Origin: a virus
Strand: one strand, 5' to 3'
DNA length: 33,783 nucleotides
Virus record (IMG/VR): IMGVR_UViG_3300024518_006527
Span: 1 to 33,783 of that record
Below, in pieces: positions 1-33,783 of this stretch. The notes beneath the pieces were generated by a model. The model was not told the DNA's origin and searched no databases. It worked only from the letters and a program-made list of their open reading frames with translations. Position numbers and translations under genes: made by a program. Position 1 is the first letter of the stretch. Each line of letters opens with the position of its first letter.

Positions 1-1415
1 TGGATCAGTATCACGGCGACCCTCTGTACGCGCAGCTGCATGTCCTGTCGCGCGAGCGCCCTCTCGTCCGTGAGATGTTGAAGACTGCTGCCTTCGAAAA
101 GGTGGCGGTCGACAGTCTGCCCTCCACCGCTTTCGCGTGGGAAGACGAGCGACGGTTTCCTATCCATACGAAGGAAGATGCCGTTGCCTCAATCTTATAC
201 CGCAGTAAATGCGCTTCTGTGCCTTCGCACGTAGACGACAAGCTGGCCAAAGCCACAGAAATCTATGGCATTGAGGATCATGTTTTTGCGACCAAGATCG
301 CGCACGTAGGTACACCGGAGGTGGAGTACGCGCTGCCGGTCTACAAGCAGAGCATGGAGAAGACAGCCGTGGCTGCTCGGCTTGGAGAGGAAGTGCTTTA
401 CAAAGCCCTCACCTCGGGAGCCTCAAAGTCCCCCATGGTACAAAAAGGCTTGGGAGCCTTAGAGCGCGCTGGTACTGCCCTCGGAGGGAAAGGCGTAGAG
501 CAAGCCACTGGCCGTGGGCTCATGGCCGCTGGTGGACTTGGGGCCGCAGGTACAGTGGGTACCGGAGCAGCAGGGTACGCTGCTCTGAGCGGTGACGAGC
601 CGGAAGACCAAGTTCGTGTTGCCTACGAATTGGACCACGAAGAGAGCCGCTTGCCGCTGGGCAACGAAGGTCAAATCAAGGTCGCTGAGTACGTGCTCAA
701 GCGTGACTACCAGAAGCTCCCGATGGAAAAACGAGCCGATGCGTTCTCCCGGCTGGCCCTCGCGGCAAGAGAGAAGGGCATCGAGCTGGAACCGCTCACC
801 ATGAAGATGGCGGGGATGACTATCTGCAGCACCCAGATGCTGCGTGACTGGCTGGGAGCTCGCGCTGCCGCTACCGAGAAAATAGCCAGCACCGGGGGTG
901 CCAGTTGGGGCCCCATGTATGGGGAAGGTGAGGGAACACGCGGAGCACCGGATCCCCTGGCCTCGCTCAGTAAACTCGCTCCTCTTGCGAAAGCTCTGGC
1001 TTCAGAAATGAAAGAAGCGCAGGCACAGAAAGTCGCTGCGGCTTTCGACAAGCTCGCCGACGACTTGCGCAAGTCACCGCCGTTCATCCAAGACCGCCCG
1101 AGTCTCGTCAAGCTGGCAGCAGCCATCGACACGCTTGACCGCCTCGTTGGGTTGAACCAGCACTACGACCGCAAGCTTCCCGACCCGCTGCAGACCGTGT
1201 TCAACACGGAAAAGGTAGCGATGGAAATGGCTGACGTTGCAGGCATGCAGGTACCTGTAGACCAGCTCATGCAACTACCTCCTCAAATCTGGGAGCAGGT
1301 AGACATGCCCGAGCTCGCTGAGGTCGCCCAGGCAGGTGACCCTGCGCTGTTCAAGCAGATGTTCGAGACGATGCCCCTAGACATCAAGGTCGCTCTCCAG
1401 GCACACTTAGGCTGA
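1..1415 (+). CDS. Putative virion protein, 5'-truncated at window edge
   Basis: The reading frame is open from base 3 to the TGA at 1413-1415. The first ATG is at 75, but the in-frame codons before it (3-74) read as normal protein and no ribosome site precedes that ATG, so the true start probably lies upstream of the window. I do not recognise the family. From the ATG at 75 the protein is 446 residues, Ala/Lys/Glu-rich and mostly helical in appearance. A Gly/Ala-rich stretch around residues 148-168 looks like a glycine zipper that could touch a membrane. The tripeptide K-[T/V/I/L/M]-A occurs about 13 times, far above chance, and is also frequent in the partial gene at 32539. The stop overlaps the next start (TGATG), showing translational coupling. 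Its place before terL suggests a structural or head-assembly role, which is inference. Confidence 0.6.
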   Translation, partial: DQYHGDPLYAQLHVLSRERPLVREMLKTAAFEKVAVDSLPSTAFAWEDERRFPIHTKEDAVASILYRSKCASVPSHVDDKLAKATEIYGIEDHVFATKIAHVGTPEVEYALPVYKQSMEKTAVAARLGEEVLYKALTSGASKSPMVQKGLGALERAGTALGGKGVEQATGRGLMAAGGLGAAGTVGTGAAGYAALSGDEPEDQVRVAYELDHEESRLPLGNEGQIKVAEYVLKRDYQKLPMEKRADAFSRLALAAREKGIELEPLTMKMAGMTICSTQMLRDWLGARAAATEKIASTGGASWGPMYGEGEGTRGAPDPLASLSKLAPLAKALASEMKEAQAQKVAAAFDKLADDLRKSPPFIQDRPSLVKLAAAIDTLDRLVGLNQHYDRKLPDPLQTVFNTEKVAMEMADVAGMQVPVDQLMQLPPQIWEQVDMPELAEVAQAGDPALFKQMFETMPLDIKVALQAHLG

Positions 1416-1651
1416 TGACTATGTTTTATCGGGCGGGACGCTACGCAGCTCTGGTGAAACTGGGCATGGGTCCTCCAGGGCCAACACCTACAGGCCCTGT
1501 GCAAAGAGAATTCTCCGCACCCCGTTCCATCGCATCTGCTCCCGTAAATCAGGGGCGGAAACCTGGGGAAAGCTACGGGGACCGTGTGACCATGAAAAAC
1601 ATGACTCCACGTGAAAAAAGCCAACGCCTAATGTACTTGTTCAGTAACTAA
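1415..1651 (+). CDS. Small protein with shared N-terminal YxxGxxAALxKLGM motif
   Basis: A 78-residue protein whose ATG overlaps the previous stop by one base and whose TAA overlaps the next ATG by one base (TAATG), so it is the middle gene of a coupled trio. The N-terminus reads YRAGRYAALVKLGM, closely matching the N-termini of the genes at 29142, 30027 and, more loosely, 32539. The motif is followed by a Pro/Gly-rich linker and a basic C-terminal half. No enzyme motif or membrane segment is visible. The function is unknown. The shared leader and the structural context suggest a virion-associated peptide, but this is inference. A second in-frame ATG two codons downstream could also serve as the start. 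Confidence 0.65.
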   Translation: MTMFYRAGRYAALVKLGMGPPGPTPTGPVQREFSAPRSIASAPVNQGRKPGESYGDRVTMKNMTPREKSQRLMYLFSN

Positions 1652-2331
1652 TGACTACCTCTGCAGCGAAAGCAGCTCTCCGTGACGAGAAAACATGTGC
1701 GTCAGCGTGCATGTTCGCCATGGATGCGCTCTTGGGATCTTCATGGAGAGCGTGGGAGCCTGAGACCCTTTGGCTCTCACTCACTCGGATGAGGGTCCAT
1801 GTTCCTGATGAGAATCGGGAACAGATCATGGCAGCCCGCAGCCTCATCACCACGGGCCGCTTCTACTATGACATGCATGCCTTCGAGAAAACATGCATGA
1901 GCTTCAACAACGAAGAGGGTAACTACGACGCCCTCGATGACGCCCCTGTCATGTACATCAGCTGGGCGGTAGCTGAAGCGGAGATGATCCACCGCTTTTA
2001 CGAAGACGGAGAGACGGGCGTATTAGACCGAGAGCCTGTCTGCTACACCGCAATACAGCTTCACCGTGCTGGGTTCGTGCAGGCCCCTACCCCCTTGGGC
2101 TGGGCTCAGAAAGAGCTCGACAAGCACAACGCCAATGATGCCGCATGTAAAAAACTATGTGCTACGGTGCGAGAGGGATGGGCTGCTGCACCCAGGGGAG
2201 ATGACCTCCTGAGTGCAGCATTTCCCGAAACTCCCGAGGGAGTACAGCTTGCTCGACTAGCCGCTGTCCACGTCTATCACGAACGTCGTCGTAAAGAACG
2301 TGAGCAGCAGCTAGCCAAGCTCAAGACCTAG
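1651..2331 (+). CDS. Conserved-looking phage protein of unknown function
   Basis: A 226-residue protein starting with an ATG that overlaps the TAA of the preceding small gene, and ending 97 bases before the convergent AAA+ ATPase gene. The sequence is mixed helical with many Trp, Tyr, His and Cys residues (Cys near 16, 20, 82, 131, 165 and 169), which gives it the look of a compact globular protein. The C-terminus is basic and probably coiled (HERRRKEREQQLAKLK). There is no signal peptide, membrane segment or recognisable catalytic motif. It is coupled with presumed virion genes upstream, so a head or DNA-packaging accessory role is possible but unproven. Confidence 0.6.
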   Translation: MTTSAAKAALRDEKTCASACMFAMDALLGSSWRAWEPETLWLSLTRMRVHVPDENREQIMAARSLITTGRFYYDMHAFEKTCMSFNNEEGNYDALDDAPVMYISWAVAEAEMIHRFYEDGETGVLDREPVCYTAIQLHRAGFVQAPTPLGWAQKELDKHNANDAACKKLCATVREGWAAAPRGDDLLSAAFPETPEGVQLARLAAVHVYHERRRKEREQQLAKLKT

Positions 2332-2399
2332 AATTCGACCGTCCATTTGATCTTGTACTCGTACATGGGTACCGCTGGCACGTACACGTAAGAAGCATC

Positions 2400-2430
2400 A
2401 AGGAAGAGAGTGCTCTCCCTTTCCTTGTTT
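2400..2430. terminator. Possible terminator between convergent genes
   Basis: Between the plus-strand gene ending at 2331 and the minus-strand ATPase gene ending at 2429. AAGGAA (2400-2405) plus GAGA (2406-2409) can pair with TCTC (2414-2417) and TTCCTT (2421-2426) across a 3-base bulge and a 4-base loop. TTGTTT follows on the plus strand. The stem is imperfect, so this is a weak call. Nothing else is visible in 2332-2428. Confidence 0.3.
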
Positions 2431-3706
2431 ACTGGGCCGGGTCTCGGCCTTTGATTAAACCCGCGTCTTGCTTGTACTTCCTCATGGCCTCGACGATGAC
2501 CTTCATCTTGTTCTTGTAGGCCGGGTGTCCCTGCATCGCACCGGACAGCTTGCTGAGGTATTTCTCCCCTTCAAGCCCTCGCTCTTTGCCCTGCTCGTTG
2601 AGGTGCTGGGCAGCGAAGGTGCTCAACAGCTCGTTGGGCAGGTCTCCGATGTAGAGGGCGATGTTCTTGGCGATCTTGGCCGGGTCCGGCATGGAGCTGA
2701 AGAGCTCGATGGCGACCGACTCGTTGAGGTCGTTGATGACCCCAGCGCGGTTCTGCTTCTTGCGGGTCTCGACGAACACACCTTGTGCGTCGATTTTGCA
2801 GTTCAGGAGTGCAGCCACGCGCTTCCGCACGCTGCTGTTCGGCTTGTACTTATGGATGATCTCGCTGGGCTGGATGAGCGTGTTCTGGTCCGCGACGAAG
2901 TCGAGAAACTTGCCCGAAGCCACGGATCCGATTTGACCTTCGACGAGTGCACGTACAGCAGGCCCCGTCAGGTCCATGCCTGCCGCTTCGGCCCCCTCCA
3001 TGATGTTCGAGACCTTCTCCCAGTTCGACGGGCACGTGAAGGTCTTGCCTGCGTCCCGAGCTCCAGCGTCGTAGAGGTAGTTCGAAGCCGACTTGATAAA
3101 CGCGGGCACCAACGGGTACCACTTGCTCTTCTTGGTGTAGTCCAGCCACGCCTTGAGGTCATGTACGCAGTACACGAAGTTGAGGCGCTTCCGGATAGCG
3201 TGGTCCTTCTCCGCCTCGTTGACGAGATACACTCCGTCAGAGGGGTTCATGGCTGCCACGACCATGATGTTTCGGTGGAGCGTGAAGTCGTGAATCCGAC
3301 GCTCGTCGGTGAGTGTGAACAGCGCGTTCACGAGAGCCTTGTCTCCGCGGTTCCACTCGTCGAGGAAGAGAATCGCGTTCCCTTTCCTTTCTGCGATCTC
3401 GTTGAGTTTCAACATCCACCCAGGGGGGACGAAGTCGAACGACGCTCCATCAGCGGCGAACATGATCATCGAGATCTCTTCTTGCGTCATGTGACCGAAG
3501 TTGAGAATCTTGGTGTGACCGCCTTTCTCGGCTGCCCACTGCTGTACAATGGGGGTCTTGCCAATGCCTGTTTCCCCCACTAGGCAAACAGTAAGTCGTT
3601 TGGGCATAGCCCATACGACATCAAGGATTTTGGGAACCATCCCGATGTTCGTAGGCCGAACCCCGAGTTTCTCCCAGGGGTCGACCATATCCTTTTTATC
3701 TGACAT
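2429..3706 (-). CDS. MoxR/AAA_5-type AAA+ ATPase
   Basis: A 425-residue ATPase. Walker A is GETGIGKT at residues 44-51, Walker B is LFLDEWNR at about 113-120, and a sensor-1 Asn lies in AAMNPS near 154. The acidic-Asn-Arg Walker B and the hairpin that follows are typical of the MoxR/dynein-like (AAA_5) branch, whose members remodel or chaperone partner proteins, often with a VWA-domain partner. No VWA protein is in the window. The C-terminal 200 residues are helical and unassigned. The gene stands alone on the minus strand and is divergent from terL, 36 bases away. No Shine-Dalgarno precedes its ATG, but a TATAGC hexamer (minus strand, 3722-3717) sits 10 bases upstream, so the mRNA may be nearly leaderless. 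The family call is firm; the partner and role (head assembly, tail sheath or lysis) are unknown. Confidence 0.85.
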   Translation of the reverse strand: MSDKKDMVDPWEKLGVRPTNIGMVPKILDVVWAMPKRLTVCLVGETGIGKTPIVQQWAAEKGGHTKILNFGHMTQEEISMIMFAADGASFDFVPPGWMLKLNEIAERKGNAILFLDEWNRGDKALVNALFTLTDERRIHDFTLHRNIMVVAAMNPSDGVYLVNEAEKDHAIRKRLNFVYCVHDLKAWLDYTKKSKWYPLVPAFIKSASNYLYDAGARDAGKTFTCPSNWEKVSNIMEGAEAAGMDLTGPAVRALVEGQIGSVASGKFLDFVADQNTLIQPSEIIHKYKPNSSVRKRVAALLNCKIDAQGVFVETRKKQNRAGVINDLNESVAIELFSSMPDPAKIAKNIALYIGDLPNELLSTFAAQHLNEQGKERGLEGEKYLSKLSGAMQGHPAYKNKMKVIVEAMRKYKQDAGLIKGRDPAQ

Positions 3707-3718
3707 ACTTTTTTTCGC

Positions 3719-3724
3719 TATACT
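3719..3724 (+). promoter_or_regulatory. Candidate -10 element for terL (TATACT)
   Basis: TATACT lies 18 bases before the terL ATG, with GAGGAAA (3731-3737) as ribosome site between. No good -35 is found at 16-18 bp spacing. On the other strand the same stretch supplies TATAGC to the AAA+ ATPase gene, so it may drive both directions. Confidence 0.35.
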
Positions 3725-3742
3725 CTTCTAGAGGAAACCGCA

Positions 3743-5410
3743 ATGGTTACCGGGCTTGACGACATATCAATACGGAGATCGGAGTGGGTAACCACACTCT
3801 TGTACCTCGACGGGAAACCTTTTTCGCTTCGAGATTACCCCTTCTACAACATGGTGTACGACAACACGTACTCGGCCATGCTTTTGAAAACTGCGCGACA
3901 GGTGGCCAAGAGCACCACCCTGTCAAATTTTTTGATCACTGAAGCGTGTAGTACTCCCCACTGGAAGAGCCTCTTTGTAGCACCCAGTCAGGAGCAAACA
4001 ACGAAGTTCTCCCAGACGCGTGTGGGAAAAACGATTTTCTATTCGCCAGAAGTAAGGCGACGTTGGATCTCGAAAGAACTCTCTAGTCGTGTGTACATGA
4101 AGATGTTCACCAATGGCTCGGAGCTCGCTTTCTCCTACGCCTGTGATGACCCTGACCGTGTGCGTGGTGTGTCTGCAGACCGCGTCGCCTACGACGAGGT
4201 GCAGGACATCATGTATGACGAGGTCATCCCCGTCATCAACGAGTGCATGGCCAACTCTGACTTCGCCTATGAAACGTACTGTGGAACTCCTAAGTCGATG
4301 GAGAACACCATAGAGACTTTGTGGCAGTGGAGTACACAAACAGAGTGGGTGGTCAAATGTGATGCTTGTGGTCGATTCCAGTTCTTTGTCGACGACAAGT
4401 GCTTGGGCAAACTAGGCCCTATTTGTTTGAACTGCGGGGCATACATAAACGTACGCAACGGTGAGTGGATCGACATGAATGTCTATCCACCTGGATTCGA
4501 CGGGAAACGGATCAAAGGCTTCCATGTTCCCCAGGTAATCCTACCTAAAAACTCACCTGCGGCTATGCCACGCGACGCTCGTAACCAAGAACTGGCCGAG
4601 CGTCGTTGGAAGCGAATACTAGAAAAGCATGCTGTTTATCCGACAGCTAAATTCAAGAATGAGGTCATGGGTGTTTCCGATGCCATCGGTACACGTCTCA
4701 TCTCCAAGGAGGAACTCGAAGCCCTTTGTCTTGACTACGAGGTCACGGATTATCCCACAGGCAATATGTTGATGAGCAACTACCGCAGTGTAGTGGCGGG
4801 CGTCGACTGGTCAGGTGGGGGTATGCAGGGCAACTCCCGCACTGTCCTTTGGATCTGGGGTATCTGCTCAGGGGGACAACAGCACAACTTCCGTCTTAGA
4901 ACGCTGTACTTCAAAGTCTACCCTGAGACCAACCCCATTTCGGGCGGGGTTGTTGACCATATTGTAGACATGTGCACCCGCTTCAACGTAGAGCTGGTGA
5001 TAGGCGACGCTGGTGCTGGAGCTCTAGCTAACTCCAACCTCCGAGAACGCCTCGGGGGACACCGTGCCATGCAGGTACAGTACAAGGGCGGCACCTCAGG
5101 TAGTGGCGGTGCAGGTCGCTCCTTTTACTGGAACAAAGTCGACCGCTTCTTGGCCGAACGCACGACCATGATTGATCACTTCTTCATGTTCGTAAAGCGA
5201 GAAGGGGTTGTCTATCCCAACGTCCGACAGATGGCGATTCCCATCAAGGACATGCTCAACGAATACGAAGAAGAGACCAAGCATGGCCGTAAGGTGTGGA
5301 GGCATGCCCCCACGCAGCCGGATGACTGCCTTCATGCTCAAATCTTTGGCTGGATGGCAGCCAAGTTTGCGACCATGGATCCGATGTTCACTTTCAACAG
5401 TGAAGTCTGA
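3743..5410 (+). CDS. terL: Terminase large subunit (ATPase-nuclease) with zinc ribbon insert
   Basis: This is the DNA-packaging motor: an N-terminal ATPase that translocates DNA into the prohead through the portal, and a C-terminal nuclease that cuts the concatemer. The 555-residue protein shows a deviant Walker A KTARQVAKST (49-58), Walker B RVAYDE with D151 and E152, and a coupling motif CGTP (180-183). The nuclease has an RNase H-like acidic set: D355 in VAGVDWSGG, D422 in VIGDAG and D527/D528 in QPDDCLHAQ. Between ATPase and nuclease is a Cys-ribbon, C206-x2-C209 and C228-x2-C231, reminiscent of lambda gpA-type terminases. The ATG at 3743 has GAGGAAA eight bases upstream. No small-terminase gene was recognised beside it. 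Downstream lies the structured island at 5411-6289. Confidence 0.93.
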   Translation: MVTGLDDISIRRSEWVTTLLYLDGKPFSLRDYPFYNMVYDNTYSAMLLKTARQVAKSTTLSNFLITEACSTPHWKSLFVAPSQEQTTKFSQTRVGKTIFYSPEVRRRWISKELSSRVYMKMFTNGSELAFSYACDDPDRVRGVSADRVAYDEVQDIMYDEVIPVINECMANSDFAYETYCGTPKSMENTIETLWQWSTQTEWVVKCDACGRFQFFVDDKCLGKLGPICLNCGAYINVRNGEWIDMNVYPPGFDGKRIKGFHVPQVILPKNSPAAMPRDARNQELAERRWKRILEKHAVYPTAKFKNEVMGVSDAIGTRLISKEELEALCLDYEVTDYPTGNMLMSNYRSVVAGVDWSGGGMQGNSRTVLWIWGICSGGQQHNFRLRTLYFKVYPETNPISGGVVDHIVDMCTRFNVELVIGDAGAGALANSNLRERLGGHRAMQVQYKGGTSGSGGAGRSFYWNKVDRFLAERTTMIDHFFMFVKREGVVYPNVRQMAIPIKDMLNEYEEETKHGRKVWRHAPTQPDDCLHAQIFGWMAAKFATMDPMFTFNSEV

Positions 5411-5735
5411 CCTTGCTGTCCTCTCGGACCTCTGAGCACCCAATCAAGGTAGCGAAGTCGTCAAGTCAAGATACCCTAGTAAGGGGTATCTGACGAAGGA
5501 CGTTGAAGCTTCTTGATCCAGTGACGAGGAGGCCGCAGTGCAATGTGCGAAGCACCATAAGGCTCTATGTGTGCGCGCTTCTGCATTTGTCGTTAGGTGA
5601 CGGAACATCACCTGTAGTCAGTGACTATGACTTTCCAAGGTCTTCTCTTGCTGGGCTGTGAGCGGGACGTCCCGAATCAGGAAATGCATTGCATCTTCTG
5701 ATTTGATCAAGGAGTCTACGCGTTCGGACAAAAAA
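5411..5735. other. Structured non-coding stretch A downstream of terL
   Basis: About 325 bases with no credible gene but dense secondary structure. Visible elements: GATACCC/GGGTATC stem with 7-base loop (5470-5490); CTGACGA (5490-5496) that could pair with TCGTTAG (5590-5596, one G-T) to enclose a multibranch domain; GTGC-GAA-GCAC (5545-5555); AGGTGA-CGGAACA-TCACCT (5595-5613); a 13-base palindrome TAGTCAGTGACTA (5615-5627); the 12-base palindrome CGGGACGTCCCG (5663-5674); and an imperfect hairpin of about 12 pairs at 5675-5703. It could be a structured RNA transcribed past terL, or a DNA site such as a packaging or replication site. It shares one hairpin type with stretch B (5995-6289). Confidence 0.5.
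5595..5613 (+). repeat. Stem-loop copy 1 with CGGAACA loop
   Basis: AGGTGA and TCACCT form a perfect 6-bp stem around the loop CGGAACA. The copy at 6227-6245 has the same loop on the stem CTGCGA/TCGCAG. Three of six base pairs differ while pairing is kept, which argues for selection on structure. Confidence 0.6.
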
Positions 5736-5768
5736 GAAGGGGGCAGCCAGTGTTACCTGACCGCCCCC
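5730..5768 (-). terminator. Rho-independent terminator of the 72-aa gene
   Basis: Read on the minus strand, GGGGGC (5768-5763) pairs with GCCCCC (5744-5739), with an extra CAG/CTG pairing inside, and is followed by TTCTTTTTT (5738-5730). The hairpin begins 7 bases after the stop codon of the minus-strand gene at 5776-5994. No T-run follows the hairpin on the plus strand, so it should act only on minus-strand transcripts. Confidence 0.8.
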
Positions 5769-5775
5769 TCTAGGG

Positions 5776-5994: not shown

Positions 5995-6122
5995 GAGTAC
6001 CTCCATTGGAACTTTTTGCCGTTGGAGATTCGAAGGTGAACAATAGCGAGCGGGACCCGCCAACCTGAGATCTTGAAGAAGCGCAAAGCTGCTTCTCAAT
6101 ATCAGGCTTTTGGGTGGCCAGA

Positions 6123-6168: not shown

Positions 6169-6226
6169 GCACAGGCACCCTGCGTCTAGCACAAGCGTAA
6201 CGCAAGGTACTAGGTGACCTAGCAGT

Positions 6227-14091: not shown

Positions 14092-14099
14092 GTCCCACC

Positions 14100-15100: not shown

Positions 15101-15811
15101 ATGAGTACGAAAAACACTACCGCTGTTCGCCCCTACAATCACGATTCGCTCGCGATCTACTACAAGGACGTGGAGGGGACCCGAATACTAACTCGGGCTG
15201 AGGAACAGGGGCACATACGAAAATTTCATGAGACACAAGATCCTGCAGCACGTGATCTGATTATTCAAGGAGCTTTGCGATATGTAATCGCAGAGGCCCG
15301 CAAACACCCTAGAGCCTTCCATAATCGTTCAGTTTTGGAAGATCTCATAGCCGCTGGGAATATCGGACTGATCCGTGCACTACACAAATTCGATCCAGAG
15401 GCAGGCACTCGGTTCTTAACGTACGCCGGTTGGTGGGTACGCCATGAGATGCGCGAAGAAGGACGCCGGATAGGCATTGTCCACATCCCCGCCCACGCCA
15501 TCGCTAAAGGAACCAAGATACCTATTGCCACTGCGCTCGCCGAACATTCTGCTACGGATACGATCACGCGGGATGCTACAGCTCAAATCAACTCTACGCA
15601 GAGCGTCGTGAAGTTGCTTGTGCTCACCCCGTTGAGTACCCGTGAAACTTTTATTGTGAAGACCTGTTACGGTATTCATACATCTGCAAAAACCTTGAAA
15701 CAAATAGGCAAGGTTTTGGACATCACTGGGGAGCGTGTACGCCAGTTACGAGAAGCGGCGCTTACTAAGCTCCGCTCGTCTGCGTCTACACACCAGATTT
15801 CTCTTTTTTAG
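15101..15811 (+). CDS. Sigma-70 family RNA polymerase sigma factor
   Basis: A compact 236-residue sigma factor. Region 1.2 is at about 16-44 (SLAIYYKDVEG, LTRAEEQ), region 2 at 48-120 (LEDLIAAGNIGLIRALHKFD and TYAGWWVRHEM), a short region 3 at 124-140 (VHIPAHAI), and region 4 at about 173-226 (LSTRETFIVK, then the helix-turn-helix ITGERVRQLREAALTKL). It directs core RNA polymerase to promoters. In region 2.4 the Gln and Thr that contact the -10 box in the housekeeping factor align with His and Glu here, so its -10 preference may differ. The gene is alone on the plus strand between two minus blocks. It lacks a ribosome site and may be leaderless. It likely partners the phage polymerase at 24753-32458, or reprograms the host enzyme. 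Its stop overlaps the parB stop by 3 bases. Confidence 0.92.
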   Translation: MSTKNTTAVRPYNHDSLAIYYKDVEGTRILTRAEEQGHIRKFHETQDPAARDLIIQGALRYVIAEARKHPRAFHNRSVLEDLIAAGNIGLIRALHKFDPEAGTRFLTYAGWWVRHEMREEGRRIGIVHIPAHAIAKGTKIPIATALAEHSATDTITRDATAQINSTQSVVKLLVLTPLSTRETFIVKTCYGIHTSAKTLKQIGKVLDITGERVRQLREAALTKLRSSASTHQISLF

Positions 15812-24752: not shown

Positions 24753-27700
24753 ATGGCCTCGGAATTACAGCCACTACTGACCGACGCGGGCACTCGCCGT
24801 GAGTCCATTCGTGAAAAGACGGTCGAAGGCCTCAAGGCTTTGTTCCCCATCGTTGGGCGGAGCACCACCCTTGAGGTCAAACACGTCAACGTAAAGAAAA
24901 AGGACTACTCGTCGAATCAGCAGAAGGAAGCCCTCATGAAGGGGCGCACTCTGCATGAGCCGATCACGGGTACGCTGGTTCTCAAGGACAACGACGGTAA
25001 AGTCGTAGAGGAAAAGAAAAACCATACCCTTGTCCATCTGCCCTACTTCACAGAACGCCACACATTCATCGTGGGCGGTAACGAGTACGACATACCTAGC
25101 CAGATGCGGCTCAAGCCGGGGGTGTATACCCGTGAGCGCAACAACGGAGAGTTCGAAGCTGCCTTCAACCTGAGCAAAGGAAGCAACTTCCGTCTGTCCA
25201 TGGAGCCTGAGTCCGGGCGTCTTCACATGGAGCTCGGGACATCCAAGGTCCCGCTGTACTCTTTGCTGCGATCCTTAGGCGTGCCCGAGGCAGATATCCG
25301 GCAGCACTGGGGTGAAGAACTGCGTGACGTCAACGCAAACAGCTTCAAGGGCAAAGAAGAAATCGCCATCAACAAGGTCATCAATAAGATCAAACGTAGG
25401 GGAGATACCGTACCCACTACGGTTGAGGGAAAAAAGGAATTCGTACGTAACTACTTTGATGCCACCGCCATGGATGCTGACGTCAATATGCGCACCTTGG
25501 GTGTCCCTGTAGACAAGGCCAACCCTCTGGCGTTGCTGACAGCCTCCAAAAAACTAATAGAAGTACAAAAGGGTAACGACTCAGAGGATGACCGCGATAG
25601 CCTTGAGTTCAAGACCATCCACTCCGTAGATGACTTCTTTAGGGAGCGGCTCAACGTAGACGCCAAACGCACCATCGCACGTAAAGTGGGCTTGAAGATG
25701 AATCAAGCTCGTGGACGGACCTTGAAAGAACTCGTCCCCAACTCCACGTTTACGCGCTCGCTCAATTCGTTTATTACGAGCTCCAATCTGAGCTCTATCC
25801 CGATGCAGATCAACCCTGTTGAAATCATCGACCACGCGTCCCGTATTACTTCACTGGGTGAGGGTGGTATCGGTAGTGAGCGCGCTATTCCTTTTGCAGC
25901 GCGCCAAGTACACAACACCCACCTCGGCATTCTGGACCCGGTTCGTACACCTGAGTCCTTCAAAGCAGGTGTTGATGTACGTGCGGGGCTGGCTGCATTC
26001 CGAGATCGACGTGGGAATCTTTACTCCCTAATGAAGGATATTCGTTCTGGGAAAATGACTCACGTGCCTGCCACTACTTTAGCCAAGAGCACCGTTGCAT
26101 TCTCAGGGCAAGAACATCGGTCTCGGCTAGATGCCGTCCGAGGTAGAGACGTAGTATCCGTAGCGCGCAAAGACGTAGACTACGAGCTGCCCAATGCTGC
26201 GTACATGTTTGGCCCCACCACTGCGATGGTGCCCCTGATAGATGGGATGCAAGGTAACCGTACCATCATGGGCTCCAAGTTCCAGACTCAAGCACTGCCG
26301 TTGCTGGAGCGCGAAGCTCCCTACGTACAGGCTGCTGCGCCTCGTAAGGGCGAGAGCATGGAACGAGAAATCGCACGACTTGTCGTGCCCACTGCGAAAG
26401 GGGCTGGCACTGTAACTAAAGTAGATGCCGATTACATCTACGTCCGCCCTGATGGTCCCAAGACAGCCGCGCCGGCCGTCCAAAAAATACCCTACGACAC
26501 TTATTTCCCCCTCTCATCTAAGACGTACCTTCACAACGATGTGACCGTGAAGGCAGGGGACAGAGTCAAAAAAGACCAGACGCTGGCCACCTCTAACTTC
26601 ACCAAAAACAATACCATGGCTCTTGGTAAGAACATGACCGTAGGGTACATGGCTTACTACGGGAAAAATTCTAACGACGCTGTGGTGATTAGTGCAGGGG
26701 CTGCAAAAAAGCTCACCTCTGAGCACATGTACAAGGAGGTCATGACCAAAGGTCAGGATGTAATCCTTGGCAAAGAGAAGTACACGGCCTACTACGGCTT
26801 GAACTTCACGGCCGAGCAGCTGGGAAACCTTGACAGCAACGGTATAGCCAAGGAAGGCGTCACACTACACAAGGGTGACCCTATTATCCTTGGCATGCGC
26901 AAGTCTCCTCCCTCTCCTGAGGCTGCGCTACTCGGTAACTTTCACAAGTCACTGGTCAAGCCCTACCGCGACATCACAGTCACCTGGGAAAAGACGGTAC
27001 CGTGCGTCATCCAAGACACCATGGACAGCGCCCGGCAAATCATGGTGACTGTGCGTACACAAGAACCGATGAAAATCGGAGACAAGCTTGCCAACCGTTT
27101 CGGCGGTAAGGGGGTCGTCTCTGAAATCGTCGATGATGAACGCATGATTCAAGCGGAGGACGGCAACCCTATTGATGTTTTGTTCACATCAGCAGGCGTA
27201 GTAAGCCGCATCAACCCTGGTCAGATCGTAGAGTCAGCGCTTGGTAAAGTGGTAGCCAAAACAGGCAAGCCAATAATCCTCCCGCAATTCATGCGAGAAG
27301 ACAATGTGAAGTTCGCCAAGAAGCTGCTGAAAGAGCACAAGCTCAAGGACAAAGAAACAGTCTACGATCCCATCGCCGACAAAAAGATAGACGACATCTT
27401 CGTAGGTAATTCCTACATACATAAGCTGTTCAAATCTACTGAGACCAACTACTCAGCCCGAGGGGTGTCTGCTTATGACATCAACCTTCAACCTACACGT
27501 GGTGGCGACGAAGGTGCCAAGGGCGTTGGCAAGATGGAAATCAATGCGTTGTTAGCGCACAACGCACGGAACGTCTTGAAAGAAAATCTCACAACCAAAG
27601 GTGAGAAGAGCGATGAGTTCTGGCGAGCCTATGAATTTGGGCTGCCCCCTCCCCCTCCCAAGACTCCATTTGTGTCCGAGAAGTTTGTCACCATGCTGCA

Positions 27701-29132
27701 AGGTGCAGGCATCAATGTAGACAAACAGGGGTCACAGGTTTCCTTGGGACCTCTCACCGACCGAGACATCAAAAAGCTGAGCTCGGGCGCTCTTGCCGTA
27801 CCCAGCTTGGAGAAGTCCAAGTCCTTCATGGTTAGCGCCAAGAACATGAAGCCGGAAAAGGGCGGGCTTTTCGACCCTAGTTTGACAGGGGGCCTTAGCG
27901 GTACTCGTTGGTCTCACATGGATCTAGCTGAGCCAGTAGTCAACCCCGTCTTTGAAGAGCCCGTACGTAGATTCCTGGGCATGACCAAAGCCCAGCTGCG
28001 CGCTGAAATGGGAGAGATAGGCGGTGATGGAGTGCGTAAACGCCTCAACCGCATCGACATGGAAAAGAAGGAGGATGAACTTCTTCAACTCACAAAGACC
28101 AAGCGCGGCGCTGACTTAGACAACGCAATCAAGCAGCTGAAATACATCCGCGCTTTGAAGGCGGGGGACCACAAGAAAATAGGAGACGCATACACGATCT
28201 CCAAGGTTCCAGTCATCCCTCCTGTGATGCGTCCTATCCTTCCATCGCAACGAGGTAACGAGCTCCAAGTTTCCGACATCAATTACCTGTACCGAGATGT
28301 TGGGTTGGCTTCTGAAGCTTTGAAGGGTATGGCGGCGATCGGGCTTCCGAGTGCTACTTCGGACGCACGCCATCACTTACATGACGCAGCCGGTGCGTTG
28401 TTTGGCACAATGCGCCCCACAAGTCCGCAGTTGAAGGGGCGCGAAGCCAAGGGCTTTATCGAACAAATCACGGGAGCTGGCTCTCCCAAGTCTGGCTTTC
28501 TGCACAAAAAGATACTGAAACGACAGCAAGACCTGTCGGGACGAGCCACGGCCACCCCAGACAACACTCTCAACATGGATCAAATTGGTATCCCCGAAGA
28601 CATGTTGTGGAAGACCTACTCCAAGTTTTTGATGCGAGGCCTAGTGGGGCAAGGGTACAAGCCCACACACGCTGCCGAGATGATCGAAGAGCGTCACCCA
28701 GCCGCCAAGGTTATTCTTGATGCCGAGATTCAAAAAAGGCCTGTGTTTGTTAATCGCGCTCCCTCTCTGCATAAGCATAACTTCGTTGCTGCTTACCCTG
28801 TATCAGTTCCAGGAAAGTCGCTACGAGTAAATCCATTCATGGAGAGGGGACAGAACCTCGACTACGACGGCGACACCATGCAGCTGCATGTGCCTGTCGG
28901 AACCAAGGCCGTTGAGGAAGCACAAGGACTTACCTTGTCTAAGCTACTCTTCAGCGACAAAAATAGGAACGACCTCATGGTCTTCCCGCAACATGAAGCC
29001 ATCCTGGGTGTCTATCTCGCCACTGCGAAGAAGGAGCCTGGGCGTGCCAAGAAGTTCAAGACCAAAGCCGCCGCCATGAAAGCCTATCGTCTTGGCGAAA
29101 TCACCATGAATACCCCTGTCTCCATCGGATAG
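24753..29132 (+). CDS. rpoB-rpoC: RNA polymerase beta subunit fused to N-terminal half of beta-prime
   Basis: A 1459-residue fusion. Residues 1 to about 960 are a full but short beta subunit: VGGNEYDIPSQMRLKPGVY near 105-125, the rifampicin-region counterpart FITSSNLSSIPMQINP, the fork counterpart SLGEGGIGSERA, GDKLANRFGGKG (776-787), and SYIHKLF to GKMEINALLA at the end. A five-proline linker (965-969) leads into beta-prime: KPEKGGLFDP, then HMDLAEPV with no zinc-finger insert between, VIPPVMRPILP, NRAPSLHKHNF and the catalytic loop NLDYDGD (1368-1374; three Mg-binding Asp). The chain stops about 85 residues later, before the funnel. The rest is at 30647-32458. The four Cys of the usual N-terminal beta-prime zinc finger are absent. 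This is a viral-type core lacking alpha and omega in the window. Confidence 0.95.
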   Translation: MASELQPLLTDAGTRRESIREKTVEGLKALFPIVGRSTTLEVKHVNVKKKDYSSNQQKEALMKGRTLHEPITGTLVLKDNDGKVVEEKKNHTLVHLPYFTERHTFIVGGNEYDIPSQMRLKPGVYTRERNNGEFEAAFNLSKGSNFRLSMEPESGRLHMELGTSKVPLYSLLRSLGVPEADIRQHWGEELRDVNANSFKGKEEIAINKVINKIKRRGDTVPTTVEGKKEFVRNYFDATAMDADVNMRTLGVPVDKANPLALLTASKKLIEVQKGNDSEDDRDSLEFKTIHSVDDFFRERLNVDAKRTIARKVGLKMNQARGRTLKELVPNSTFTRSLNSFITSSNLSSIPMQINPVEIIDHASRITSLGEGGIGSERAIPFAARQVHNTHLGILDPVRTPESFKAGVDVRAGLAAFRDRRGNLYSLMKDIRSGKMTHVPATTLAKSTVAFSGQEHRSRLDAVRGRDVVSVARKDVDYELPNAAYMFGPTTAMVPLIDGMQGNRTIMGSKFQTQALPLLEREAPYVQAAAPRKGESMEREIARLVVPTAKGAGTVTKVDADYIYVRPDGPKTAAPAVQKIPYDTYFPLSSKTYLHNDVTVKAGDRVKKDQTLATSNFTKNNTMALGKNMTVGYMAYYGKNSNDAVVISAGAAKKLTSEHMYKEVMTKGQDVILGKEKYTAYYGLNFTAEQLGNLDSNGIAKEGVTLHKGDPIILGMRKSPPSPEAALLGNFHKSLVKPYRDITVTWEKTVPCVIQDTMDSARQIMVTVRTQEPMKIGDKLANRFGGKGVVSEIVDDERMIQAEDGNPIDVLFTSAGVVSRINPGQIVESALGKVVAKTGKPIILPQFMREDNVKFAKKLLKEHKLKDKETVYDPIADKKIDDIFVGNSYIHKLFKSTETNYSARGVSAYDINLQPTRGGDEGAKGVGKMEINALLAHNARNVLKENLTTKGEKSDEFWRAYEFGLPPPPPKTPFVSEKFVTMLQGAGINVDKQGSQVSLGPLTDRDIKKLSSGALAVPSLEKSKSFMVSAKNMKPEKGGLFDPSLTGGLSGTRWSHMDLAEPVVNPVFEEPVRRFLGMTKAQLRAEMGEIGGDGVRKRLNRIDMEKKEDELLQLTKTKRGADLDNAIKQLKYIRALKAGDHKKIGDAYTISKVPVIPPVMRPILPSQRGNELQVSDINYLYRDVGLASEALKGMAAIGLPSATSDARHHLHDAAGALFGTMRPTSPQLKGREAKGFIEQITGAGSPKSGFLHKKILKRQQDLSGRATATPDNTLNMDQIGIPEDMLWKTYSKFLMRGLVGQGYKPTHAAEMIEERHPAAKVILDAEIQKRPVFVNRAPSLHKHNFVAAYPVSVPGKSLRVNPFMERGQNLDYDGDTMQLHVPVGTKAVEEAQGLTLSKLLFSDKNRNDLMVFPQHEAILGVYLATAKKEPGRAKKFKTKAAAMKAYRLGEITMNTPVSIG

Positions 29133-29141
29133 AGATCACCC

Positions 29142-29528
29142 GTGAGTACTACCTACTACCAACTTGGTTGCTACGAAGCCTTGGTGAAGATGGGCATGCA
29201 GCTCACCTTCAACTCGCCGCAAGAAGCAGCGGCTCACGCCAAGACACGGGAAACCATCGGAGATGTCACGGGGTTCGCAGGTAGTCTCGCAGGCGGCTTG
29301 GCAGGTGGCGCTGTCGGTACAGCAGCAGGTGGTCCTGCGGGGAGTCTTGCTGGCGGACTGGCTGGAGGGTATGCAGGGGAGAAGATGCTCAGCATGCCTG
29401 CCACTACGGCCTACGATACGGCCCACGATGTGAAACAGCGTACTGGAGCTCAGTACAACAAGACGGTGGGGCAGCTCAACGCTGCTTCGGGGGTACCCAC
29501 TGGTGTGCCCCAAGGGAGAGCTTTCTGA
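29142..29528 (+). CDS. Gly-zipper protein with shared N-terminal motif
   Basis: A 128-residue protein starting with GTG at 29142, 9 bases after the polymerase stop; only a weak AGAG precedes it. The N-terminus YYQLGCYEALVKMGM matches the leader of the genes at 1415 and 30027. Residues about 48-83 repeat GGLAGGAVGTAAGG-like units, a glycine zipper typical of membrane-inserting or tightly packed helices. The rest is polar. There is no signal peptide. It might be a virion or membrane-perturbing peptide, for example a DNA-ejection protein; the true role is unknown. Confidence 0.6.
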   Translation: MSTTYYQLGCYEALVKMGMQLTFNSPQEAAAHAKTRETIGDVTGFAGSLAGGLAGGAVGTAAGGPAGSLAGGLAGGYAGEKMLSMPATTAYDTAHDVKQRTGAQYNKTVGQLNAASGVPTGVPQGRAF

Positions 29529-29550
29529 GCTCTCAAAAAAAGGATAAAAA

Positions 29551-30024
29551 ATGACTCGTAACATCACATTCGTATTGTTCTTCGCGCTCCTGCTAGTTGG
29601 GTGTGGCGGTGACGGTGAGGCAGTAGAAGGCCAGGAGTTCTGGCAAGCCATCGTGGCTCACCTTCTGGAGATCGTGGTCGTCATCGCGACCCCGCTCATT
29701 CTCATCCTCGTGCGCAAGCTCATCCAAGTCATCGAGAAGAAGACCGACATCGATGTGGCTGAGAAGCACGAAAAGATGATCGATGAGTGGATCACCAAGG
29801 GTATCGCATACGGCCATGAGCAAGGGCGGAAGGCGCTCAAAGAGGGCAAAGACCCTGTCACTGGCGACGAGAAAAAGAACGCGGCAGTTGATTTCATCGC
29901 CGCTGGGCTAGACAATACGGGTCTAGTCACCATGGGCCGAGACGCATTGGCTAAACTCGTAGAGTCCAAGCTGAACGTTGAGCGGGCGGCCGAAGACACC
30001 GAAGCCCCTGAAGAATCCGAGTAA
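29551..30024 (+). CDS. Holin-like membrane protein with lipobox
   Basis: A 157-residue protein with AGGA 7 bases before its ATG. It begins with a signal-like segment ending in LLVGC (Cys18), a lipobox. A second hydrophobic helix spans about 30-55 (VAHLLEIVVVIATPLILILV). The remaining 100 residues are charged and helical (AEKHEKMIDEWITKG, DEKKNAAVDFIAAGL, DALAKLVESKL). A hydrophobic N-terminus followed by a Lys/Glu-rich helical half with a late (V/I)E(S/A)xV-like end recalls the phage LL-H holin family, which lets endolysin reach the wall. No endolysin is next to it. Alternatively it is a lipoprotein or inner-membrane accessory. It sits between the two polymerase halves. Confidence 0.55.
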   Translation: MTRNITFVLFFALLLVGCGGDGEAVEGQEFWQAIVAHLLEIVVVIATPLILILVRKLIQVIEKKTDIDVAEKHEKMIDEWITKGIAYGHEQGRKALKEGKDPVTGDEKKNAAVDFIAAGLDNTGLVTMGRDALAKLVESKLNVERAAEDTEAPEESE

Positions 30025-30026
30025 CC

Positions 30027-30647
30027 ATGTCAAACTACGCCTACCTGCTGGGGAGCCGCGCCGCCTTCACCAAACTCGGGATGCCCTATCAGGGCCCCGA
30101 GGCTGAGGAAGAGGAGGAGGATCCTATAGCCCCACCCGAAGGCGTACCTCCTTCCCCTGAAGAGGATGAGGAGATTCCACCGGAGTTGCTCGCCGCGCTC
30201 ATGGCACAGGCTGAGGAACAAGGGCCTGAGGGTGCTCCTCCTGAGATGGAGGGCGCCCCGCCCGAGATGGAAGCTGGGCCTCCCGGCATGGAAGAGGAAA
30301 TGCCGCCCGAGATGGAAGCTGGCCCTCCCAGCATGGAGACAGAAGAGGAAGTCCCCGAGGAGCTCATTGCAGCGCTCATGGCAGCACAAGAACAAGGCGA
30401 AGGCCCTGGCGCCGCCATGGGGTTGGAAGATCCTGAGGGTGAAGCGCAGTCTCCCACCGCAGATATGTTCGTAGACTTCGCACACCAAGATGGTACCGCC
30501 GACGAAGCCGACCCCAACGTCGAGATGGAAGAAGCACCTGGTACGGAAGATAAAAAGCCCTCCTGGAGTGGCAACTCTTCCCTCGAAGCAGGGGATGCCG
30601 GTACGCGTAACCACTCAATGGGTCTGCCTCAGTTCAGCGGTGCCTGA
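30027..30647 (+). CDS. Acidic Pro/Met/Glu repeat protein with shared N-terminal motif
   Basis: A 206-residue, very acidic protein starting 2 bases after the previous stop. The N-terminus YAYLLGSRAAFTKLGM carries the shared leader. The body (25-120) is repeats of GAPPEME/AGPPGME/EMPPEME with two copies of a helical PPELLAALMAQ-like unit. The C-terminal 60 residues are polar. Its stop overlaps the start of the polymerase C-terminal gene (TGATG). Proline/methionine-rich acidic proteins with a small N-terminal tag can be scaffold or tail-fibre-like linkers, or bind the polymerase. No family is recognised. Confidence 0.6.
   Translation: MSNYAYLLGSRAAFTKLGMPYQGPEAEEEEEDPIAPPEGVPPSPEEDEEIPPELLAALMAQAEEQGPEGAPPEMEGAPPEMEAGPPGMEEEMPPEMEAGPPSMETEEEVPEELIAALMAAQEQGEGPGAAMGLEDPEGEAQSPTADMFVDFAHQDGTADEADPNVEMEEAPGTEDKKPSWSGNSSLEAGDAGTRNHSMGLPQFSGA
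30232..30360 (+). repeat. Pro/Met/Glu short tandem repeats inside CDS
   Basis: Imperfect tandem units encoding G(A/P)PPEME and AGPP(G/S)ME, flanked by two copies of a unit encoding PPELLAALMAQAEEQG and VPEELIAALMAAQEQG. Low-complexity coding repeat; no mobile element features. Confidence 0.6.
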
Positions 30648-32458
30648 TGTCCAACACGTTTGGGCAGTTTCTTCTGAACGAAGCGATACCCACGCCGTAT
30701 CGACCTGACGGTACGTACACAAAAAAGAAGCTACAAGCGAGCATGATTCGCTTAGCTAAGGCTGACCCTGAGAAGTTCTCGACGGTGATCACTGAGGTGA
30801 AGCGCCTGGGGGATGAATTCGCCACCATGGAAGGCGTATCTGTAGGCCTGGATGACATAGCGCCACTGTATAAGAGGCGAAACGCCATCACACTTCCTGC
30901 GCTAAAACGGATACGCCAGGCCAAGTCCCGCGAAGCACGCCAAGATATAATCCGTGAGACACAGGATAAACTCCTCAACTATGCCATGACGCACCCCGGC
31001 ACTATGGGTGACATGGTACGTGCAGGCTCACGGGGTGCGCCCTTGCAGTTAATGCGCGCAGTGGGGGCTCCTGCTGCGGCTAGTGACGAAAAAGATGAGC
31101 TCCAACCGTGGTTAACTGTGCACAGCTATTCAGAGGGACTTCGGCCTTCTGAGTGGTGGGCTACGAACCGCGAAGCTCGTATGGCCGCCGTCAAGACAAA
31201 CATTGAGGTCACCGAACCAGGTGATCTGTCGAAAATCCTGGTCAATAACACAAGCCACCAGGTAATCACTGAGGCTGACTGCAACACCAAGAACGGACTC
31301 AGCCTGGCAACCGACGACCCCGACCTGCTAGATCGTTTTCTGGCACGGACGGCTGGGACTCAACGAGCAGAAACCCTGGTTACGCCGGGAGTAGTTCGTG
31401 AGCTCAAGAAGAAAAAAATACGCACCGTAATAGCGCGTTCCCCTATGACTTGTGAATCAGGCGTAGGTATATGCCAAAAATGCATGGGCCTGAACAGTAC
31501 AGGCGCGATGAACAAAATAGGGGACAACGTTGGCATACGCGCCAGTCAATCTCTGGGAGAACCGCTAACACAGCTCGCCTTGGACGCTAAGCATGGTGTG
31601 CGGCTCTCTGGCGGAGACCGTGCTCACCTGGCGGGGCTAACTGGATTTCGTGCCATCCTAGAATCTCCCGCCTCCTTCAAAAACAAAGCGATACTAGCTC
31701 CAGAGAACGGAAATATCACATCTGTGATAGCAGCGCCTCAAGGCGGACACTTTGTCACTATGGGCGAAACCAAGCAGCACATTGCGCAAGGGCTAAAGCC
31801 ATTAGTAAAAGCGGGAGATAAAGTACACGCAGGAGATGTACTTTCAGAGGGAGTTCCTCGCCCAGACGAAGTGGTCAAGCACAAAGGACTCGGTGCAGGA
31901 CGTGATTACGTAGTAGACAAGCTGTCCGGCATCTACAAAGATAACGGGATCAACGTTGACCGCCGACACTTTGAGGTATTGGCCAAGTCCACGTTGAATT
32001 ATCTGACTATCGAAGACATCGACGACGAAGACTCAGCCAACCACGGCCTAGTCCGCGGTGACGTCATCGACTACAACCGATTCCGTAACGTGATTTCCAA
32101 CAGCGTTGACGAGCTCCCCCTCAAGCAAGCTGAGGGACGCCACCTTGGCGAAGGTGTTTTGCACCACCTTGCAGGTACACAACTCACGGCTCCCATGGTA
32201 AAGGAACTACAGCGCGCAGGGATCCGGCGTGTGAAAGTCACCATGAAAGCACCTGTAGTTAGCCCAGTCATGGCGCCAGCTACGCGAAATCCTTTGCTAA
32301 ACCCCGACTGGATGGTCCGCTTAGGCCATAGGTATCTGAAGCAGTCTATACTCGAAGGGGCGCAAAAAGGACAAACGTCGGATCTTCACAGCACACATCC
32401 CGTACCCGGCATCATATTCAGCTCTGAGTTTGGTGAAGGATCGGCTGGTCGTTATTGA
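30647..32458 (+). CDS. rpoC: RNA polymerase beta-prime, C-terminal half
   Basis: A 603-residue protein that completes beta-prime. It begins with TFGQFLLNEAIP, matching the bacterial TTxGRxxxN(E/D)xxP segment just after the active-site domain, then GVSVGLDDIAP. It has the second zinc site: C212 and CESGVGICQKC (C269, C276, C279). The bridge/trigger-loop region reads NVGIRASQSLGEPLTQLAL (294-312), followed by KHG, where the active-site His is kept but the usual MRTF is changed to LDAK. The conserved IYKDNGINVDRRHFEVL and SPVMAPAT segments follow, and the protein ends with a rather short C-terminal region. It is translated from an ATG overlapping the previous stop. With the fused beta at 24753 it forms the two large core subunits. 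Confidence 0.93.
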   Translation: MSNTFGQFLLNEAIPTPYRPDGTYTKKKLQASMIRLAKADPEKFSTVITEVKRLGDEFATMEGVSVGLDDIAPLYKRRNAITLPALKRIRQAKSREARQDIIRETQDKLLNYAMTHPGTMGDMVRAGSRGAPLQLMRAVGAPAAASDEKDELQPWLTVHSYSEGLRPSEWWATNREARMAAVKTNIEVTEPGDLSKILVNNTSHQVITEADCNTKNGLSLATDDPDLLDRFLARTAGTQRAETLVTPGVVRELKKKKIRTVIARSPMTCESGVGICQKCMGLNSTGAMNKIGDNVGIRASQSLGEPLTQLALDAKHGVRLSGGDRAHLAGLTGFRAILESPASFKNKAILAPENGNITSVIAAPQGGHFVTMGETKQHIAQGLKPLVKAGDKVHAGDVLSEGVPRPDEVVKHKGLGAGRDYVVDKLSGIYKDNGINVDRRHFEVLAKSTLNYLTIEDIDDEDSANHGLVRGDVIDYNRFRNVISNSVDELPLKQAEGRHLGEGVLHHLAGTQLTAPMVKELQRAGIRRVKVTMKAPVVSPVMAPATRNPLLNPDWMVRLGHRYLKQSILEGAQKGQTSDLHSTHPVPGIIFSSEFGEGSAGRY

Positions 32459-32516: not shown

Positions 32517-32538
32517 ACCTCTAGAGGAGCAGGTACAA

Positions 32539-33783
32539 ATGGCTAATTCTCCGCTGTTCAAGCGCGCTTTCGTTCGCGGTCTCAATTCCGAACTCGTTCG
32601 GACCGGGGCGATCGTATATCCTTCCAAAGAAGCTGCCGATTACGCTGCTGACTACGTCGCAGACAATTCGGGAATGCCTGATCCGGTATCACAGGGAGAT
32701 TCGGTGACTGTAAAAGTCGCCCACGCCCTGTGCGACCAGCTGGTGGACGCTTCACAACACATGTGCAAGCAGGCGGGGGACAAGTACAGCCCCGCTCTCA
32801 CCAAGACTGCTCAAGCCACAGATCCCACTACCACTGCCAAAACGGCAGCGTGGTCTCTGATGCAAAAAGCAGCGGCTGAGACCGGTTCCCTCATGGAGGG
32901 AGGCGACAACGAGAACGATCAGCCTGCTGCTGCGTCTAGCAACGCAGAAGCTGCGCTCGAAGCAGCTCGGCGTCCCGAGAACTACGCCAACATGGGCGAA
33001 GAAGGCGTTGGCAACTACGAGCGCAAGGGCCAAGGCAACGTTGGTACCGAGGAGAAGCACCCGGAGAAGCCGAAGGCTACCGAGGAAGGCACCAACTCTG
33101 TCATCGAGAACACGGCCAAGCACGGCTCGTTGGCCTCGATCATACAGAAGGTTGCTGCTGGCACTGGCTCCCTCATGGATCCGGGGCAAGAGCAGAACGA
33201 TCAACCTGCCGCTGCTTCGGGTAACGCCGAAGCTGCTCTCGAAGCGCAGCGTCGCCCAGAGAACTACGCCAACAAGGGCGAAGACGGCGTCGGTCGCAGC
33301 GACATGGTTCCTGGAACCAACTCGCAGGTGGGTTCGGAGCAGGCACATCCGCTCGCACCGAAGGCCACTGACAGCGGCAAGACCAACGTGCCCATCGAGC
33401 ACATCATGGGCAGCGACGGCGGGTCAAAAAAGGCTTCTGCCTTCGACCAGCTCTTCGGCGAGACAGCGCACTCGGTAGTTCCCTACCTGCCCGCGCGCAT
33501 GAACGAGAACCAAAAGATCGCTCACGTCCGTGCCATGATGGGCCTCGCCGACGATCAGCGGGGAGCGTACCTGCACGACCTGTACAACAGCCTCGGCAGT
33601 GAGAAGAACGCTTCCGAGCTCGTGCGCGACCACTTCCTGAAGACAGCCGCAGCTAAGGAGGCGGAAGCGGCCTCCCACCCAAAAGCACCTAGCGCCGACG
33701 CTGAAAAGCTCGGCAAAGAGCTTCCCCCAGCGCTCAAGGCTCACATGAAGGGCAAAGACTCGGACGACTCCGATGATTCGGAT
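32539..33783 (+). CDS. Virion-like protein with 49-residue tandem repeat, 3'-truncated
   Basis: An open frame of 415 codons from ATG 32539 to the end of the window with no stop. The start is supported by GAGGAG 9 bases upstream and a 17-bp-spaced promoter. The N-terminus FVRGLNSELVRTGA is a looser copy of the leader seen in three other genes. Two 49-residue units (residues 110-158 and 204-252) are 38/49 identical and Asn/Ala/Glu-rich. K-[T/V/I]-A tripeptides occur at least 6 times, as in the gene at 1-1415. A compact helical domain lies near 305-365 and the end becomes Asp/Ser-rich. Likely a head or tail structural protein. The function is unknown. Confidence 0.75.
   Translation, partial: MANSPLFKRAFVRGLNSELVRTGAIVYPSKEAADYAADYVADNSGMPDPVSQGDSVTVKVAHALCDQLVDASQHMCKQAGDKYSPALTKTAQATDPTTTAKTAAWSLMQKAAAETGSLMEGGDNENDQPAAASSNAEAALEAARRPENYANMGEEGVGNYERKGQGNVGTEEKHPEKPKATEEGTNSVIENTAKHGSLASIIQKVAAGTGSLMDPGQEQNDQPAAASGNAEAALEAQRRPENYANKGEDGVGRSDMVPGTNSQVGSEQAHPLAPKATDSGKTNVPIEHIMGSDGGSKKASAFDQLFGETAHSVVPYLPARMNENQKIAHVRAMMGLADDQRGAYLHDLYNSLGSEKNASELVRDHFLKTAAAKEAEAASHPKAPSADAEKLGKELPPALKAHMKGKDSDDSDDSD
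32866..33012 (+). repeat. Coding repeat unit 1 (49 codons)
   Basis: Encodes a unit with GSLMEGG, NDQPAAAS and RRPENYANMGEEGVG. Matches unit 2 at 33148-33294 at 38 of 49 residues; the unit starts are 282 bases apart. Confidence 0.85.
33148..33294 (+). repeat. Coding repeat unit 2 (49 codons)
   Basis: Encodes a unit with GSLMDPG, NDQPAAAS and RRPENYANKGEDGVG, in frame with unit 1. Differences are mostly conservative charge swaps. Confidence 0.85.

Follow-up and report, generated by a model that had tools for sequence, protein, structure and literature searches.

A 14-residue terminal motif on unrelated proteins of an uncultured phage clade, a candidate cargo tag for the virion

Proteins that are otherwise unrelated share a 14-residue motif, YxxGxxxA[LF]xKLG[LFM], in a 33.8-kb stretch of viral DNA (IMG/VR virus record IMGVR_UViG_3300024518_006527, positions 1 to 33,783; hereafter the window) and in its relatives, an uncultured phage clade (up to ~198 kb). 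The motif is probably a modular docking helix, or cargo tag, for virion cargo that functions like the capsid targeting sequence (CTS) of phage T4. The helix would bind one common partner, most likely a prohead scaffold, core or inner-shell protein, and docking would load small membrane-active glycine-zipper proteins and enzymes (a helicase, a LigD-like phosphoesterase/ligase and an InPase-domain protein) into the head, from which the cargo would enter the cell together with the virion RNA polymerase and the DNA. In a weaker step of this scheme, a KxA element between tag and cargo would let a head protease free the cargo in approximately half of the carriers. For the clade as a whole, we regard as evenly balanced the wider proposition that one portable tag, placed at either protein end, loads the head with enzymes and membrane-active proteins, in a set that can change, and that these are injected along with a multisubunit RNA polymerase of the virion.

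Motif copies in the window

The motif lies 2-5 residues past the start codon in the genes that begin at 1415, 29142 and 30027, and a six-frame regular-expression scan of the window returns these three matches only. A previous examination of the window (the sequence-only reading) had described a shared N-terminal motif on these proteins and on a fourth that starts at 32539. It had also placed no carrier in the replication block, and none was found among the window's replication genes (5776-21668). The carriers and their motif copies are as follows.

1415..1651, + strand: orphan 78-amino-acid Pro-rich basic protein with N-terminal motif
1427..1468, + strand: motif copy 1, YRAGRYAALVKLGM (profile score 35.9); the protein begins MTMF-YRAGRYAALVKLGM
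29142..29528, + strand: 128-amino-acid glycine-zipper protein with GTG start and N-terminal motif, between two RNA polymerase genes
29157..29198, + strand: motif copy 2, YQLGCYEALVKMGM; the protein begins MSTTY-YQLGCYEALVKMGM
30027..30647, + strand: 206-amino-acid protein with N-terminal motif, acidic Pro/Met/Glu repeat spacer and conserved C-terminal ~60 amino acids
30042..30083, + strand: motif copy 3, YLLGSRAAFTKLGM; the protein begins MSNYA-YLLGSRAAFTKLGM
32539..33783, + strand: protein of 415+ amino acids that runs off the window, with divergent N-terminal motif
32569..32610, + strand: motif copy 4, divergent, FVRGLNSELVRTGA; the protein begins MANSPLFKRA-FVRGLNSELVRTGA

The 1415 protein has no homologue among the fetched relatives whose cargoes were compared by BLAST, and the 29142 protein has Gly-zipper and TraT-like matches that both fall under the Pfam cut-offs. 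The 30027 family lies directly upstream of the beta' C-part (beta'-C) gene across the clade, where its members are short (80 amino acids); the acidic Pro/Met/Glu repeat expansion of the window's protein (30165-30383) is missing from these relatives. The copy in the 32539 protein departs from the pattern by an E at the near-invariant A position and a T where L is usual. The N-terminus of its family, LFKRA[FY]VRGxNxELxRxG, is kept in 9 relatives, and the family scores 9.4 against the motif profile in contig G009 and 16.2, above the profile threshold, in contig G026. Because the N-terminus is conserved and the G026 copy passes the threshold, this fourth copy is probably a real variant, but a divergent one that is weaker than the other three. 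The same gene contains a 152-nt direct repeat (32860-33293).

An AlphaFold2 model of an 80-amino-acid relative of the 30027 protein places a helix on residues 3-14, which are the motif, with a predicted local distance difference test score (pLDDT) of ~69 there; the model is poor overall, and the helix lies in its most confident part. From its sequence pattern, with weak support from the model, the motif would form a short helix that has Y0, G3, A7 and L11 along one side (GxxxA-type packing) and ends in an L-G-hydrophobic cap. The hydrophobic moment of the motif is 0.194, lower than the 0.253 of shuffled controls; a membrane-binding amphipathic helix is therefore disfavoured, and the interpretation of the motif as a membrane helix was rejected on this ground. 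The same value bears on a broader alternative, that the motif is a helix for targeting to a membrane or host compartment, or a tag for import into a replication compartment of the phage, which acts in the infected cell and is not a virion signal. Although many carriers are glycine-zipper proteins and probably membrane-associated, the low hydrophobic moment, the tagging of soluble enzymes and the untagged replication genes of the window make this explanation quite unlikely.

Distribution and modularity in relatives

Among isolates, Salmonella phage Arash and Vibrio phages D69, D181 and D148 stand nearest to the window, with ~33% identity across the polymerase; several uncultured contigs are closer, including G001 (179.9 kb), G014 (189.9 kb), G026 (197.8 kb), G019, G009 and G010. 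A 14-column profile was iterated on a first set of relatives, and genes were called with a simple home-made caller, so that the following counts are approximate. The clade sequences together yield 1583 called genes, and 79 of these have the motif; it lies no more than 25 residues from the start in 61 and no more than 15 residues from the end in 7. In five clade genomes held outside profile training, 17 of 496 genes have it by the same 25-residue limit, versus 0.1 per shuffle replicate, and the profile finds it in none of 739 genes of the outgroups Arash, D69 and the more distant G002, all of which have a related RNA polymerase. The shared N-terminal motif is therefore real for the 1415, 29142 and 30027 proteins, and it extends from the three matches in the window's six frames far into the relatives.

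DNA patterns of the motif anchored to ATG were also used to scan 2.9 million viral contigs. With the M-x4 and M-x2 spacings 14 contigs matched, of which 13 encode the clade-type RNA polymerase and the 14th is a 24-kb fragment; these matches are partly non-independent, as several are orthologues of the polymerase-adjacent gene and some contigs are near-copies. A permuted-residue control pattern matched 4 contigs, none with the clade-type polymerase, and an out-of-frame control, with the spacing off by one base, gave 7 matches that all reach a stop within 10 codons. The M-x3 spacing matched 12 contigs, 4 with the polymerase, the remainder being mostly chance or other families. Among these, L064, L070 and L074 were set aside after inspection of their sequences, which places the matches inside DNA-polymerase-like frames, and L065, L073 and L075 as a separate family of ~700 amino acids, found on phage contigs without this polymerase and starting M[YL]xHYYxGATxALxKLG. 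A G009 gene (5227-5787, start MRYFIGID) is a likely false positive that resembles a RuvC-type active site. Tandem small proteins in G026 (178820-179644) and L004 (11957-13033) start MSHLDTA[YF]K[IL]GAxxA and are possibly more diverged copies of the tag. In a scan of bacterial and archaeal genomes, the 8 matches either fell within long open frames or were spurious, and no cellular source was found; a literature search found no published description of a YxxGxxxALxKLG-type motif.

The carriers fall into ~45 cargo families by single-linkage BLAST, and the cargoes within the window are unrelated by the same measure, in agreement with the description of them as otherwise unrelated. Recognised cargo domains are glycine zippers, an SNF2-type helicase, a LigD 3'-phosphoesterase with or without an ATP-dependent ligase and a C39 peptidase, and InPase. 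The portability of the tag is most evident in the helicase: the G001 protein starts MSESYTQGRGDALLTLGIVKYA and then aligns at 61% identity with a leaderless protein of G014, and it is 38% identical to Arash Gp217, which begins at the helicase domain and has no leader. Nor is the motif confined to N-termini. In G003, G010 and contig 3300031673_015952 (L004) a protein ends with the motif, which occupies its final 14-20 residues; in G009 the motif lies 13 residues from the end of an InPase-domain protein, and in G025 and G027 it stands between a LigD-like part and the small family that is usually upstream of beta'-C. The term leader thus suits the usual position but is too narrow, whereas the idea of a common portable element on different cargoes, put forward in the sequence-only reading, is strongly supported by these comparisons. 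Codons are identical in 269 of 863 comparisons at residues common to copies within one genome; since codons mostly differ while the residues are kept, selection acts on the peptide and not on DNA, and an element at the DNA or RNA level was rejected on this codon diversity.

The same observations bear on common ancestry, the view that the carriers are diverged paralogues of one small family whose N-terminus is the last recognisable part and has no separate function. G001 does have a tandem run of several glycine-zipper carriers (23-28 kb), which may be paralogues. The cargoes nevertheless include unrelated enzyme folds (SNF2, LigD/ligase and InPase), the tag also occurs at C-termini, the homologous helicase pair differs in its presence, and the peptide is conserved despite saturated codons, so that this already disfavoured view is highly improbable.

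In several relatives, LigD-like phosphoesterase proteins lie beside or between polymerase genes (G027 58998-60482, G025 2326-3816, G009 47147-48439, G026 176301-178193, G014 73721-75181 and G005 2903-5719); some have ligase domains and a half that, judged by eye, resembles a primase. The G005 carrier is a 939-amino-acid protein with LigD_N, ligase and C39 peptidase. It is possible that such proteins serve in packaged end-processing of the incoming genome. In L093, around 8663, a tagged stretch is followed by LYHGTSTARAAKILEEGL and by eye resembles an ADP-ribosyltransferase-type fold; the stretch has no Pfam match.

Virion link, gene position and possible cleavage

Part of the case for loading into the head comes from the relation of the clade to Arash. 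The window has the Arash-like layout of polymerase genes, in which beta continues into the N-terminal part of beta' and a separate gene encodes the C-terminal part, and virion content is known for Arash alone. The other genes of the window that bear on this comparison are listed below.

75..1415, + strand: 446-amino-acid protein rich in KxA sites
3743-5410: terminase large subunit
15101..15811, + strand: sigma-70-like factor
21654-23387: portal homologue
24753..29132, + strand: fusion of RNA polymerase beta with the N-terminal part of beta', homologue of Arash Gp206
29551..30024, + strand: 157-amino-acid membrane protein without the motif, situated between the polymerase genes, with weak similarity to Holin_LLH
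30647..32458, + strand: RNA polymerase beta' C-terminal part as a separate gene, homologue of Arash Gp216

The untagged Holin_LLH-like protein (29551-30024) is retained between the polymerase genes in relatives. Within 24753-32458, the alignment of the separate beta' C-part with a cyanobacterial beta' chain (8syi chain Z) begins close to the start of that chain, which places the split near the cyanobacterial rpoC1/rpoC2 boundary.

In the Arash virion proteome, polymerase beta Gp206 is the most abundant protein by spectra (3516); beta' has 1210 spectra, helicase Gp217 1148 and sigma Gp10 467, and the authors note that some virion enzymes may be carry-over (PMC10585845). On this evidence the particles of related phages contain the polymerase, along with an untagged homologue of one tagged enzyme; the link to the carriers is by homology, through untagged Gp217, and the tagged proteins themselves are not covered. 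InPase domains are predicted in packaged phage proteins (PMC5512222). Packaging of the tagged proteins is the best inference, because Arash virions have the polymerase and the homologue of the helicase among their most abundant proteins and the kinds of cargo are known or predicted to be injected. Gene position is in line with it, as carriers flank the polymerase genes or lie between them in many relatives and are absent from the window's replication block.

Gene position can also be taken to suggest that the motif docks its carriers on the phage RNA polymerase, which would make them polymerase-associated factors that ride into the virion or to the replicating genome. In many relatives carriers flank the split polymerase genes or lie between them, one carrier family is directly upstream of beta'-C, and an SNF2-type helicase is among the cargoes. 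Against this, Arash, D69 and G002 have the polymerase but not the motif, many carriers (glycine zippers, the phosphoesterase) have no evident role in transcription, and carriers also occur far from polymerase genes. Docking on the polymerase is therefore unlikely, though it is the least unlikely of the alternatives considered here.

The KxA element was considered as a site at which cargo could be released. Of 66 N-terminal carriers, 30 have a [KR]x[AS] site after the leader, where 12 would be expected; of 12 internal or C-terminal copies, 9 have a Kx[ASG] site ahead of the tag, where 2.4 would be expected. Head proteins of the clade, including those of Arash and D69, are enriched in a KxA(S/A) element, and G014 encodes (34943-36802) a homologue of a head maturation protease that itself has many KxA sites. 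Cleavage between tag and cargo is possible, on these site counts, in a subset of about half of the carriers. Control of such cleavage could also be the main role of the leader, as a removable maturation propeptide that would keep the cargo inactive until the head matures and would not target it. The excess of sites over shuffles on either side of the cargo and the encoded protease homologue are in keeping with a propeptide, but over half of the N-terminal carriers, including the window's three strong ones, lack a site, and KxA is only a candidate cleavage consensus, one that occurs many times in Arash proteins with near-full virion peptide coverage. A propeptide is accordingly very unlikely to be the main role of the leader, and the maturation signal proposed in the sequence-only reading survives as a possibility for about half of the carriers.

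KxA(S/A), a candidate cleavage site or binding motif, is strongly enriched in head-region proteins of the wider clade and the outgroups: in the window at 75-1415 and 32539-33783, in Arash Gp220, Gp223 and Gp242, and in G014 at 32.8-38.4 kb. The 75-1415 protein has 14 KxA sites versus 2.4 expected (counted on a 470-residue open frame from base 3), and its G014 homologue weakly matches the virion protein Arash Gp242; the 32539 protein has 10 versus 2.2 expected. KEA is conserved ~27-33 residues into the major capsid protein.

Several results weigh against a docking helix that loads the head. Virions have so far yielded no protein with the motif, and the isolate with virion proteomics, Arash, lacks it. 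In a rotation test, which is conservative because the carriers, helicase included, were left out as anchors, 32 of 53 carriers lie within 6 genes of virion-gene homologues versus 22.4 expected, which is not significant (p = 0.08), and in G001 and G026 islands of carriers stand apart from the main structural blocks. None of the three strong carriers in the window has a KxA site within 10 residues after the motif, the AlphaFold2 model of the 80-amino-acid relative is of low confidence, and a model of the tagged helicase built from two sequences reaches a pLDDT of 40 and is uninformative. The packaging or targeting signal of the sequence-only reading is thus partly supported.

If a loading helix is the right explanation, the motif would constitute a general cargo-loading code, tagged genes of unidentified function could be predicted to be injected, and factors of the first minutes of infection could be tested directly from the sequence tag. 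Foreign proteins could then also be loaded into phage heads by means of a short portable signal, and what T4 does with its CTS would have a second, apparently independent counterpart. The same genomes hint at packaged LigD-like DNA end-processing enzymes beside the virion RNA polymerase.

Comparison with known systems

The closest parallel is the T4 CTS on internal proteins IPI-III and Alt, where the peptide docks the cargo on the core of the prohead and the cargo later leaves with the ejected DNA, Alt being processed at both ends (PMC9026906, PMC7411985). Both systems place a short N-terminal peptide on otherwise divergent proteins in a large phage of the myovirus type, here on the 61 N-terminal carriers and ~45 cargo families, as against four named T4 proteins. 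The conserved pattern differs as far as known, the two being set apart by description and without direct alignment; the tag described here also occurs at C-termini or between domains, a cleavage site is not general, and the virion location of tagged proteins is deduced from homologues. The motif is consequently not classed in the T4 CTS family, given the differing pattern and a virion location, partner and cleavage that are at most inferred.

Encapsulation peptides of bacterial microcompartments are similar in being short terminal helices (N or C; here predicted at low confidence for one relative) that load unrelated cargo enzymes into a shell through variable linkers (PMC12339742). The context here is a phage, and no microcompartment shell was sought or found; the amphipathic character of those peptides is also missing, as the hydrophobic moment falls below shuffles and the small residues G3 and A7 are conserved instead. 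Polyvalent and Dar proteins are injected or packaged enzymes, and the portions of the sources consulted describe no shared short terminal tag for them (PMC5512222, PMC12810830). One carrier has an InPase domain typical of polyvalent proteins, through which it matches DarB-like and minor-head PHROGs. A few carriers fit the polyvalent-type layout of several effector domains near virion genes; most do not, being mostly small single-domain proteins. Heads of giant phages of the SPN3US/phiKZ type contain packaged enzymes and ejection proteins, with long N-terminal propeptides suspected of targeting (PMC7411985). Those propeptides have ~110-130 residues and are cut at a T4-like motif, whereas the tag of the present clade has 14 residues and occurs in a different phage lineage with a single fused/split RNA polymerase.

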